Assembly: GCA_947624325.1 (NCBI GenBank)
Contig: CANQJT010000008.1
Location: forward strand, 1 to 64,000
DNA length: 64,000 bases
Direction of reading: 5' to 3'
From: Candidatus Gastranaerophilales bacterium
GTDB lineage: Bacteria; Cyanobacteriota; Vampirovibrionia; Gastranaerophilales; Gastranaerophilaceae
Every line of letters begins with the position of its first letter. The first letter of the stretch is position 1. The notes under the pieces are model-generated. The model made no database searches. It was not told the DNA's origin and worked only from the letters and a program-made list of their open reading frames with translations. Of this stretch, positions 2,248 through 31,854 are shown piece by piece. Both the position numbers and the translations under genes were made by a program.

Positions 2248-3585
2248 ATGCAAAATCAATATATAACGGATACGATAAGCGCAATAGCTACACCGATAGG
2301 AAACGGCGGTGTCAGTATTATCCGTATTTCGGGTGATAAGGCTTTTCAAATTATTGATAAACTCTTTTCCGTCAAAAACTTAACCGCAGGCAGAATATAC
2401 CACGGCAATATACTTGAAAACGGTAATAAAACAGATGATGTAATAGTTCTGCCGTTTAAAGCCCCGAACAGTTACACCGGTGAAGATGTAATAGAAATTC
2501 AATGCCACGGCGGAATGCATATAACAAATAAAATTCTTGATTTAACATATAAAACCGGTGCTCGTCCCGCTCAAAAAGGAGAATACACAAAAAGAGCCTT
2601 CCTTAACGGTAAAATGGATTTATCCCAAGCAGAAGCCGTTTTAGACCTTATTCAAGCCCCCACTCAGAAATTTGCTGTGTCTACCGCCAAAAATTTATTC
2701 GGAAAATTATCGCTTGAAATTAAAAACATCAGGCATGAAATTATGGAGTTATTATCCAAAATCATTGCAGGAATTGATTTCCCCGAAGACGTTAAAGAGC
2801 CTGAATATGATTATATTGAAAAAACCATTGAAAATATTATTGAAAAAATCAACTATATTTTAAGCTTTTCTAAAAGTTCAAATATTTACAGGCAAGGCAT
2901 AAAAATAGTTCTTGCGGGCAGACCCAATGCGGGAAAATCCTCGTTATTCAATGCTTTATTAAATCTTGAAAGAGCTATTGTAACTGAAATAGCAGGCACG
3001 ACAAGAGATATTATTCAAGAAACGATTGATATAGAAGGAATTCCTGCAACCTTAATAGACACTGCAGGAATAAGAAATGACGAAAACTTAAACAAAGTGG
3101 AAGCAATAGGGATTGATTTTTCTAAAAAATACCTGACTGATGCCGATATTATTCTGTTTTTATACGATTTAAACGAAGGATTTACTAAAGAGGACAAGGA
3201 AATTTTAGACTCCTGCGAGGGGAAAAATTATATTAAAATTGCGACAAAATCAGACCTAACGACAAATAAAGATGATGATGCAATTTGTATTTCGCTTAAA
3301 ACGGGCGATAATCTTGATGTTTTAAAGAATAAAATAAAATCGCTTGTAACCGAGCAAAATCTTACAGAGGTTGAATTTATAACCAATAAAAGACAGCAAA
3401 ACTGCCTTGAGCAGACCAAAAATTCTCTTATAAATGCTTTAATTGCAGTCCAAAGAAAAGAAATTCAAGATTTAATCTCAATAGATATTAAATCTGCCCT
3501 CATGTATATTTCGGAAGTCTCGGGCGAAACCGTTACGGAGGATATTTTAAATAATATTTTTGATAATTTCTGTATCGGCAAATAA
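2248..3585 (+). CDS. mnmE: tRNA modification GTPase MnmE (TrmE)
   Basis: A 445-residue MnmE. With MnmG it makes the cmnm5 modification on wobble uridine of tRNAs. The N-terminal folate-binding domain begins TDTISAIATPIGNGGVSIIR. The G domain lies inside the helical domain: P-loop GRPNAGKSSL near residue 223, TEIAGTTRD switch I, DTAGI switch II, and TKSDL at the NKxD site. The C-terminus is FCIGK, carrying the catalytic C-x-G-K motif. The reading frame stays open upstream to 2041 through the GC-rich repeat block, but the family starts at MQNQYITDTI, so ATG 2248 is chosen (weak site TTGAGG upstream). Confidence 0.96.
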   Translation: MQNQYITDTISAIATPIGNGGVSIIRISGDKAFQIIDKLFSVKNLTAGRIYHGNILENGNKTDDVIVLPFKAPNSYTGEDVIEIQCHGGMHITNKILDLTYKTGARPAQKGEYTKRAFLNGKMDLSQAEAVLDLIQAPTQKFAVSTAKNLFGKLSLEIKNIRHEIMELLSKIIAGIDFPEDVKEPEYDYIEKTIENIIEKINYILSFSKSSNIYRQGIKIVLAGRPNAGKSSLFNALLNLERAIVTEIAGTTRDIIQETIDIEGIPATLIDTAGIRNDENLNKVEAIGIDFSKKYLTDADIILFLYDLNEGFTKEDKEILDSCEGKNYIKIATKSDLTTNKDDDAICISLKTGDNLDVLKNKIKSLVTEQNLTEVEFITNKRQQNCLEQTKNSLINALIAVQRKEIQDLISIDIKSALMYISEVSGETVTEDILNNIFDNFCIGK

Positions 3586-19968: not shown

Positions 19969-20961
19969 ATGACAAATTTTAATCCGATGCAATTTATAAA
20001 CAGTTTTATAAACGGTTATAATACTGCAAAAAGTGCAAATATACAGAATAATCCTCAATTAAATCAAACTGTGCAAACTGAAGTTCAAAATCAGCAAATG
20101 CAGACTCTTTTACCAAATACTACAGCACAGCTTAATACAACTGCGGCAGAACTTACAATGCTTAATCAAGAGCAAACCGTTAATATGCTAAAAGAATTGT
20201 TAAATTTTCCGAAAGAATTACAGCAATTATTCAGCCAATTAATAGCAAATTCGCAGATTTCAAACAGAGATTTAGGATTAATATTACTTGCGGCAAGTAC
20301 AAATTTACCTCAATTATCATCTCTTCTGCAAGGCAGTGCAAAAGAAGCAATGACAAATTTATATCAAATGCTTGCGCAATATAATCAGCTGGGATTAAGT
20401 ATAAAAGATGAACAGCTTTATGAATTATCAAAATTTATATCATTTGTAAGCGCCGCATCAACCAATGACATACAGAGTTTAAAAACAACGTTAATGCTGT
20501 ATCTGCCTTGGCTTCCTTTAACCAATCCCGAAGCTTTTAAACTGGAAATAGGCAAAAAAGGTTCTGATGGCGGAAATATAAGCGATGATTTTATTTCCGT
20601 ACTTATTGCAACCGAAAATTACGGAAATTTTCAAGCGGATATTTATAAAACAGATAAAGACGGAATAAAAATTCAAAGCATAACCTCTCAAACTTTTCCT
20701 GTTGAAATCTATATAAATTTAATGAAAGAAGAAGGAAAAAAATACAATATAAATATAAATTTTGATACTGCTAAAAAAGAAGCATTTAATAAGGAAAAAA
20801 ACGAAAAAGCATCAACACAAGTATGTATGAATGTAGGGCCGGGGGTTAATCCGTTTTTATTATTAATTTCAAACTCATTAATAAAGGCCGTTCATTTAAT
20901 AGATACAAAAGAAAAATTAAAAGAACACAGAAAAGAGAAACTGGAAAATGGCAAAAGTTAA
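19969..20961 (+). CDS. Asn/Gln-rich protein of unknown function
   Basis: A 330-residue protein with no signal peptide. Residues 1-60 are rich in Asn, Gln and Thr (NPQLNQTVQTEVQNQQMQ), probably disordered. A helical middle follows (MLKELLNFPKELQQLFSQLI, then LGLILLAAS). The C-terminal third is a mixed alpha/beta domain (NFQADIYKTDKDGIKIQ, FPVEIYINLMKEEGKKYNI). The shape is loosely reminiscent of hook-length or secretion-ruler proteins, but no diagnostic motif is seen, so no function is given. Its end overlaps radA by 14 bases, so the two are probably co-transcribed. Confidence 0.6.
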   Translation: MTNFNPMQFINSFINGYNTAKSANIQNNPQLNQTVQTEVQNQQMQTLLPNTTAQLNTTAAELTMLNQEQTVNMLKELLNFPKELQQLFSQLIANSQISNRDLGLILLAASTNLPQLSSLLQGSAKEAMTNLYQMLAQYNQLGLSIKDEQLYELSKFISFVSAASTNDIQSLKTTLMLYLPWLPLTNPEAFKLEIGKKGSDGGNISDDFISVLIATENYGNFQADIYKTDKDGIKIQSITSQTFPVEIYINLMKEEGKKYNININFDTAKKEAFNKEKNEKASTQVCMNVGPGVNPFLLLISNSLIKAVHLIDTKEKLKEHRKEKLENGKS

Positions 20962-30051: not shown

Positions 30052-30360
30052 ATGATACTAAAAGAATTTTCAAAATATTTGCAGGAAAATAAAGATAAAA
30101 ATTCCGTAATTTTATTAAACGAATGGCTTTTAAACAGATTAATAAATCCTTCTTTAAATAAAGTTGATAACATAATAAAAGCTGAACTTTATCTTGCAAA
30201 AAATAATAATGATAAAACTTTAATAATAGCAAAAAGCGATACGGGCAGAACTTTATTAAATGCACTTTATAATTTTTCTTTAAGTTTTGAACAGTATAAA
30301 CTTGCAAAATTTTTGCACGATAAAAAATCAACAGATTTTAATGATAAAAAAACCCAATAA
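30052..30360 (+). CDS. Small conserved-type protein of unknown function
   Basis: A 102-residue hydrophilic protein (ILLNEWLLNRLINPSLNKVD, LLNALYNFSLSFEQYKLAKF). It is largely helical and lacks a signal peptide. A promoter ends 6 bases before ATG and a terminator lies directly after the stop, so it is a monocistronic, probably leaderless gene. It borders the origin-like region, but nothing links it to replication. Confidence 0.5.
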   Translation: MILKEFSKYLQENKDKNSVILLNEWLLNRLINPSLNKVDNIIKAELYLAKNNNDKTLIIAKSDTGRTLLNALYNFSLSFEQYKLAKFLHDKKSTDFNDKKTQ

Positions 30361-30362
30361 AA

Positions 30363-30385
30363 AGGCATGCTTTCATGCTTTTTTT
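30363..30385 (+). terminator. Rho-independent terminator
   Basis: GGCATG-CTTT-CATGC stem followed by seven T; it ends the gene at 30052-30360. Confidence 0.75.
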
Positions 30386-30700
30386 GTATCAAAAATTTAC
30401 AAATAAAATTTATAATTATTTGTAGAAAACTTGTAGAAAACTATTTTTTATTATGTATAAAATTTAAAAAATATTTATAAAAAATTTAATAATTAAAAAA
30501 AATATAAATTTTTATACATTTTTTAAACATATTTGAATAAAAAATCTACAATTTTTATACAAAACTAAAAATCAATAATAATAATGTTTTTTAATACTTT
30601 TATACAATTTTTTTTAATACTTATTACTACTGTTATTTTTTTTATAAAAAATATAATAATTAATAATTAAATAAAAAATGCCGAGATTTTTATTTTTCTT
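30386..30700. other. Candidate replication origin (oriC) upstream of dnaN
   Basis: An almost pure A/T intergenic region of about 350 bases. Six copies of the nonamer TTTTNTACA lie within 190 bases: minus strand at 30421-30429, 30432-30440 and 30454-30462; plus strand at 30510-30518, 30553-30561 and 30598-30606. The first two are TTTTCTACA in tandem, 11 bases apart, and differ from the consensus DnaA box TTATCCACA at two positions. The rest are TTTTATACA. Long A/T stretches at 30610-30690 could be the unwinding element. dnaN follows directly, as at mapped origins of some cyanobacteria. Confidence 0.55.
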
Positions 30701-30738
30701 ATATAATATAAATGTGAAAAAGAGAATTGAGGGTAATT

Positions 30739-31854
30739 ATGCTTTTTACAATAGATAGAGATTCTTTATTAAATAAATTGAAAATAGTTGAAAAAGTAAC
30801 GGCACAAAGAGGAAATGTACAACCGGTACTTGCAAATGTTTTATTTGATGCAAAAGATAATACTCTTAACCTGAGTGCTACCGATTTAGAAATATCAATA
30901 AAAGCAAAAACAACGGTAGCCGTTAAAAAAGAAGGAAAAATAACACTGCCTGCAAAAAAATTGCTTGAAATTGCAGCTAAATTACCTGATAAACCGGTTG
31001 AATTTTCACTGAATGAAGATACAAATATAGTAAGTATTACTTGCGGTAATTCTAAATTTGAAATAATAGGTATTTCCGCACAAGAATTTCCTAAAACCGA
31101 AGAAGATGTTGAAGGCGGAACTGAAATAGAAATTGAACTTGAACCGTTATTAAAATCAATAAAAAATACTGTTTATGCAGCTGCAAATTATGAAAACAGA
31201 AATGTAATTTCAGGTGTATTTTGTTTAATAAAAGATACAAAGCTTGAAATGGCTGCAACAGACGGAAACAGATTAACAAGAATTATAGAAACCATTAAAA
31301 ATAAAGACGGTAAAAATGCAAAAATTGTTATTCCGTCTAAAACTTTAAATGAATTTGTAAGAATATGCTCATTTATTGTAGAAAAAAATGTTACTTTAAT
31401 TGTTGATAAATCAAGATTAACTTTAAAAACAATGAGTTTTTCAATTAATTCAAGATTAATAGAAGGTGAATATCCTCCTTATGAACAATTAATACCGAAA
31501 ACTATGGCAAATAATGCAATTGTATCAAGAGATGATTTGATTTTAGCTCTGGATAGAGTCTCAACAATGGTTAATGACAGAACAAGCATAGTTAAATTTA
31601 TGTTTGAAAATAATCAGTTAATATTAAAAGCTGAAACACCAAATTCAGGTACATCAGAAGATATAATTGAATGTAATTATAAAGGTGATGATTTAGCAAT
31701 AGCTTTTAATTATAAATATGTTCTTGATTCCGTAAAAACAATGGAAGCAAAAAATGTAAAAATAGGATTAAACGGCAGTGTTTCAGCTACCGTATTTAAA
31801 CCTGACAGCGAAGAAAATTATATATGTTTAATAATGCCGATACAAATAAGATAA
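30739..31854 (+). CDS. dnaN: DNA polymerase III beta sliding clamp
   Basis: A 371-residue beta clamp from ATG 30739, preceded by GAGGG. An in-frame TTG at 30727 is part of that ribosome-site region and is unlikely. The three repeated domains are visible: MLFTIDRDSLLNKLKIVEKV and VLFDAKDNTLNLSATDLEIS; domain II VYAAANYENRNVISGVFCLI and LEMAATDGNRLTRI; domain III AIVSRDDLILALDRVSTMVN. The C-terminus YICLIMPIQIR is the conserved clamp end. dnaA is not adjacent; an origin-like region lies upstream. Genes thrB and pgk follow closely. Confidence 0.97.
   Translation: MLFTIDRDSLLNKLKIVEKVTAQRGNVQPVLANVLFDAKDNTLNLSATDLEISIKAKTTVAVKKEGKITLPAKKLLEIAAKLPDKPVEFSLNEDTNIVSITCGNSKFEIIGISAQEFPKTEEDVEGGTEIEIELEPLLKSIKNTVYAAANYENRNVISGVFCLIKDTKLEMAATDGNRLTRIIETIKNKDGKNAKIVIPSKTLNEFVRICSFIVEKNVTLIVDKSRLTLKTMSFSINSRLIEGEYPPYEQLIPKTMANNAIVSRDDLILALDRVSTMVNDRTSIVKFMFENNQLILKAETPNSGTSEDIIECNYKGDDLAIAFNYKYVLDSVKTMEAKNVKIGLNGSVSATVFKPDSEENYICLIMPIQIR

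Follow-up and report, generated by a model that had tools for sequence, protein, structure and literature searches.

A predicted chromosome replication origin upstream of dnaN in a Gastranaerophilales bacterium, with DnaA boxes that diverge at position 6

The window analysed here is a 64,000-nucleotide stretch of DNA from a Candidatus Gastranaerophilales bacterium. It contains dnaN, the gene for the DNA polymerase III sliding clamp, and directly upstream of that gene a gap of 378 bases (30361-30738) with a G+C content of only 12.4%. The ORF on the other side of the gap (30052-30360, 102 aa) has no Pfam match, and same-genus relatives have a similar sequence ahead of the gap. Structured RNA and tRNA searches of the window found none. 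The initial annotation had described the gap as featureless apart from a cluster of box-like nonamers, a description that proved too spare, since a trinucleotide run (30621-30635), a hairpin (30365-30378) and a TATAAT (30702-30707) are also present. The features of the region are as follows:

30365-30385, plus strand: hairpin GCATG-CTTT-CATGC with a T run after it, probably terminating the upstream ORF and marking the left border of the predicted origin
30421-30429, minus strand: predicted DnaA box TTTTCTACA, tandem copy 1 (motif search, genome scan, alignment)
30432-30440, minus strand: predicted DnaA box TTTTCTACA, tandem copy 2 (motif search, genome scan, alignment)
30454-30462, minus strand: predicted DnaA box TTTTATACA, often TTTTAAACA (A6, that is, A at position 6) in relatives (motif search, alignment)
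30510-30518, plus strand: predicted DnaA box TTTTATACA (motif search)
30521-30529, plus strand: candidate weak DnaA box TTTTAAACA (A6), read from the sequence
30553-30561, plus strand: predicted DnaA box TTTTATACA (motif search, alignment)
30598-30606, plus strand: predicted DnaA box TTTTATACA, adjoining the DnaA-trio; many relatives have TTTTCTACA here (motif search, alignment)
30621-30635, plus strand: DnaA-trio run TTA TTA CTA CTG TTA, 14 nt from the box and conserved in the alignment
30636-30690, no strand assigned: near-pure A/T stretch, probable unwinding element, placed by the known layout of the basal unwinding system (BUS)
30702-30707, plus strand: TATAAT, probable -10 element of the dnaN promoter; columns 30700-30708 are invariant in 12 aligned relatives
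30739-31854, plus strand: dnaN (PF00712, PF02767 and PF02768, all over cut-off)

A terminator scan returned one terminator-like site, given on the minus strand at 30378-30365, with 0.1 expected in shuffles, and the hairpin and T run are conserved in the 12-row alignment. The promoter scan did not return the TATAAT at 30702-30707. The sequence at 30521-30529 is listed as a candidate weak box because A6 sites are found above chance (186 against 48 expected) in K433 genomes, those whose DnaA has Lys at the equivalent of E. coli residue 433.

Six TTTTNTACA sites were found by motif search of the window within 186 bases (30421-30606), three on the minus strand (30421, 30432 and 30454) and three on the plus strand (30510, 30553 and 30598). 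This agrees with the initial annotation, which had counted six nonamers, three per strand, in about 190 bases upstream of dnaN, and which had correctly placed the tandem copies two changes away from TTATCCACA; the tandem sequence, TTTTCTACA, is also one change from the cyanobacterial TTTTCCACA. Neither the window as a whole (17 sites against 13.05 expected, a number reached by 21 of 100 shuffles) nor the genome (205 + 237 matches, 442 in all, against 271 + 240, or 511, for the reversed control) is enriched in the motif, and the signal therefore lies in the clustering alone. If this absence of enrichment is taken to favour a chance cluster in an A/T-rich spacer, resampling of the gap points firmly the other way: at least six sites were reached in none of 20,000 draws under an order-1 Markov model (mean 0.225 sites) and in 1 of 20,000 under an order-2 model (mean 0.805). 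Elsewhere in the window, any 186-base span that begins at a site holds that site alone. The cluster is thus as strong locally as first claimed, and its conservation across genus and order, described below, already contradicts a chance origin, to which we give practically no credence.

The canonical box TTWTNCACA is matched 9 times in the window (9.85 expected) and only once in the gap, by TTTTTCACA at 30713. The canonical C at position 6 is missing from all six clustered boxes, which have T6. Position 6 distinguishes the boxes of the lineage, with T there or, less often, A; the best consensus is TTTTCTACA. The lineage-specific box that had been proposed stands, with its definition refined to T or A at position 6 and to the TTTTCTACA consensus.

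Conservation was followed in 58 genomes, 49 of which, the window's own included, yielded dnaN; DnaN is 97% identical in the same-genus genomes G034 and G010. The tandem pair TGTANAAAANNTGTAGAAAA, with its 11-bp spacing, occurs at 42 places in 33 of the 58 genomes, and the 1.98-Mb genome of the window has a single copy, at 30421-30440. By taxonomic level, the pair is present in 29 of 35 same-genus genomes (own included), in 4 of 22 from the same order and not in the one genome that represents the rest of the class. All but one of the 42 places lie at most about 400 nt upstream of dnaN, and the reversed control gave 1 match. The initial annotation had asked whether the motif is as dense in other intergenic regions; the pair is unique in the genome and the window spans outside the gap are limited to one site, both of which favour the gap. 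Six same-genus genomes lack the pair: in three dnaN itself was not matched, in a fourth dnaN lies 45 nt away from the end of a contig, and the dnaN gaps of the last two (G014 and G032) contain no T6 boxes. The same-order gaps contain longer TTTTCTACA arrays, and a clear cluster at dnaN is absent from several other genera of the window's family, among them g21, g31 and most of g23.

The pair was also sought in the genomes of 84,980 species, where 34 stretches matched, 25 of them with titles that name Gastranaerophilales, Melainabacteria or Cyanobacteria; NCBI taxonomy places Gastranaerophilales within Candidatus Melainabacteria, beside Cyanobacteriota. Seven of the 34 (Clostridia, Clostridiaceae, Erysipelotrichia, SAR324, Clostridiales, Lachnospiraceae and Bacteroides) were set aside as chance matches, with no further T6 boxes around the pair. 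A search for the pair in phages gave 0 stretches in viral_contigs. T6/A6 clusters with the tandem pair were also seen at L407:1104, L410:2180, L411:605, L432:5349 and L433:3239 (L408:7547 is similar). These contigs are labelled Gastranaerophilales, except one that has no label, and no dnaN was found in the stretches examined; the clusters are possibly relocated origins in genera with an empty dnaN gap.

The arrangement of the right half of the gap recalls a known unwinding module. Beyond the last plus-strand box (30598-30606) come a spacer of 14 nt, five trios and then almost pure A/T, and the complement of the trio run is 3'-AAT AAT GAT GAC AAT-5'. A box with at least three trios and a spacer of 8-20 nt was found in 61 of 81 scored gaps (29 from the window's own genus, the others from genomes in which C6 or T6 is clearly in excess), while shuffled sets gave a mean of 0.3 and a maximum of 1. 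Spacers of 12, 13 and 14 nt account for 16, 12 and 24 gaps, respectively. The strict pattern is absent from the other 20 gaps, including those of G045 and G040. According to PMC8287927, the published BUS has 3'-GAT-5' trios and a spacer that peaks at 10-13 bp with a maximum of 16 bp; with five trios 14 nt from a correctly oriented DnaA box, the window exceeds the minimum of three trios within 16 bp that defines a BUS. As described in PMC8287927, the BUS of Bacillus subtilis and others shares with the window a DnaA box, a short spacer, trinucleotides of the 3'-GAT-5' type and A/T-rich DNA, while the box of the window's lineage deviates at position 6, which is why a search for the canonical pattern may overlook this BUS.

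Together, the box cluster, its conservation, the box-spacer-trio layout, a skew flip in G045 and the independence of the module from dnaN in G009 lead us to conclude that chromosome replication in this Gastranaerophilales (Melainabacteria) species very probably starts from the gap at 30361-30738. DnaA would bind the divergent boxes TTTTCTACA and TTTTATACA through its domain IV and, from the plus-strand box beside the trio, would extend onto a single strand of the DnaA-trio run. The adjacent A/T stretch may then be opened as in the BUS, with initiation taking place there.

One competing explanation is that the boxes regulate the transcription of dnaN, as sites bound by DnaA or by another repressor, and that the origin lies elsewhere. 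Their position directly upstream of dnaN, beside a conserved TATAAT, fits such a role, and the skew of the window's own contig does not decide the matter. In the same-genus genome G009, however, the module is intact, with the tandem pair, other boxes and the trio run all on contig C139, where the next gene encodes a helix-turn-helix protein on the opposite strand, and the dnaN of that genome is on C299 with no boxes upstream. The module at positions 1-1100 of C139 (L422; see also L027) could reflect a natural uncoupling of oriC from dnaN or an assembly break, and misassembly is possible because G009 is a metagenome assembly. The box-spacer-trio layout also argues against this explanation, as does the skew flip at the orthologous gap of G045, and we consider it very unlikely. 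In members of f8 and f13, dnaN closely follows dnaA and the trio run lies in the gap between them. A location of the window genome's origin at dnaA was tried and rejected: the 3.5-kb dnaA locus has 2 TTTTNTACA sites (0.81 expected) and no cluster.

GC skew, which the initial annotation had proposed as a check, gave a divided answer. The orthologous gap of G045 (same order) coincides with a sign change: skew is negative in all seven sampled stretches to the left of dnaN and positive in 12 of the 13 to its right (20 stretches of 20 kb from an 852-kb contig). A G-C walk across positions 243001-284000 of G045 is lowest at 262798, and the dnaN start at 263115 follows 317 nt downstream. The single-contig genome G058, at the class level, is likewise consistent, with skew turning from negative to positive between 1,644,000 and 1,740,001 and dnaN at 1,737,812. 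Agreement is poorer in G021 (same genus), where 13 kb separate the minimum from dnaN. The window's own contig, at 74 kb too short and noisy to be decisive, has a weak cumulative-skew minimum at 20529, about 10 kb from the gap. The candidate oriC of the initial annotation is strongly supported by the uniqueness and recurrence of the tandem pair, the trio layout and the G045 skew flip.

The DnaA protein of this genome was examined for changes that might accompany the divergent boxes. It is complete (470 aa, PF00308 and PF08299 over cut-off), is present in one copy, and is encoded apart from dnaN on another contig (G000:C2:79883-81292). E. coli DnaA domain IV with DNA is reportedly the subject of work by Fujikawa in 2003. 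The canonical recognition helix GGRDHTT, with Asp at E. coli position 433, is replaced here by NRKHTT, whose Lys falls opposite Asp433 of E. coli DnaA (1j1v) and the corresponding Asp of 3pvp and 8btg in the alignment. A look at domain IV, also recommended at the outset, thus revealed a substitution of the residue equivalent to D433. Asp433 occurs in none of the 115 class members tabulated. Of the 136 genomes with both a dnaN-upstream stretch and a DnaA domain IV, 21 have D at residue 433, none of them a member of the class, and the class members have K in 92 cases, N in 6, R in 6, T in 6, G in 3 and Q in 2. Three f11 genomes (G061, G067 and G079; L299-L301) have the helix GRGNSA or GRGNSS, in which H434 is also lost, and almost no box-like sites upstream of dnaN; their DnaA is possibly further recoded or reduced. 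Two separate observations concern dnaA loci. A second dnaA-dnaN pair lies side by side at G002:C9:10057-12877, with 40% and 28% identity to the proteins of the window's genome, and is probably a contaminating contig. Downstream of dnaA, at L001:2602-2814 and 3206-3418, are two small helix-turn-helix genes of equal length that look alike by eye.

How does residue 433 relate to the base at box position 6? Matches to TT[AT]TNXACA were counted by base X up to about 900 nt upstream of dnaN. D433 genomes (21) gave C61 T3 A3 G1, with about 2-3 expected each, and K433 genomes (92) gave C19 T366 A186 G18, with 14, 36, 48 and 12 expected. N433 genomes (6) gave C35 T1 A7 G1. The small groups gave A4 for Q433, C2 A11 G3 for T433 and C2 T11 A6 G5 for R433, and the G433 rows have almost no boxes. 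Within R433, G217 gives T8 and the f15 pair G4 A5 C1. Any code must be loose, given this disagreement between R433 genomes and the ambiguity of T433 in f12.

On a DnaN tree of 103 rows (a quick LG+G4 tree with no bootstrap, the window's genus thinned to 12 rows and 38 rows without clear box excess unscored), 65 rows show a clear base; among these, D and N rows have C6 in 14 of 14 cases and all others lack it in 51 of 51. The N433 rows form one clade inside the window's family, a change from K to N accompanied by C6 again. Each trait changes twice on the tree, together in both independent pairs (sign test p 0.5). With only two independent switches, significance is out of reach, and a code linking residue 433 to base 6 is likely but unproven.

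Could the boxes simply have drifted from C6 to T6 in an A/T-rich genome, with residue 433 changing independently? The 12.4% G+C of the gap, the small number of independent switches and the incomplete consistency of the Lys and Arg rows all leave room for such drift. Nevertheless, T6 is kept by three f8 members with a locus G+C of 0.47-0.49 and C6 is found in the N433 clade despite its 0.25-0.36, so that base composition does not explain base 6; the A/T-rich D433 genome G271 (locus G+C 0.30) has C2 T1. We regard drift as unlikely, though a serious contender. Covariation in the sequences suggests instead, with rather better than even probability, that the base preferred at box position 6 is determined by residue 433, and the boxes of the lineage would have T6 rather than C6 owing to the Lys that its recognition helix has in place of E. 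coli D433. On balance we lean towards a recoding of the DnaA-box language in the whole class, in which D433 became Lys as C6 became T or A, a nested Asn clade returned to C6, and the Q, T and R branches adopted A or G.

PMC5043019 lists helix 5 residues 432-435 and 438-439 as base-contacting and describes the 433-434 dyad as highly conservative. D433 has been described as conserved across bacterial classes, and a cited paper assigns it to box position 7, not 6. Our covariation points to position 6, the neighbour of 7, so that residue 433 would have to contact both base pairs, or the change would have to work indirectly. Epsilonproteobacterial origins likewise combine a lineage-specific box with domain IV changes, but as presented in PMC5043019 they have T at position 5 and vary at residues 435 and 438-439 while keeping 433-434, whereas the window's lineage changes position 6 and residue 433. 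The cyanobacterial oriC with box TTTTCCACA (Synechococcus PCC 7942, Anabaena PCC 7120 and Cyanothece ATCC 51142), as described in PMC4674748, adjoins dnaN and shares with the window its position upstream of that gene, clustered boxes, T at position 3 and an A/T-rich stretch. In comparison with these origins, the window's lineage has T or A rather than C at position 6 and Lys433 rather than Asp, and is richer in A/T. A literature search with subscription papers outside its coverage found no earlier report on TTTTCTACA, a Gastranaerophilales oriC, a Melainabacteria DnaA or origin, or this DnaA specificity and coevolution.

The layout of this predicted origin is already known; the box and the recognition residue are a new variation. 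The locus provides a probable origin for a large uncultured lineage of gut and environmental bacteria, useful for metagenomic estimates of growth rate, and origin finders based on canonical boxes can be blind in Gastranaerophilales. The natural series at DnaA residue 433 (D, K, N and possibly Q, T and R) offers a test of how DnaA specificity evolves without killing the cell. If recoding is indeed class-wide, residue 433 would act as a natural switch of specificity and leave the initiator partly insulated against foreign origins.
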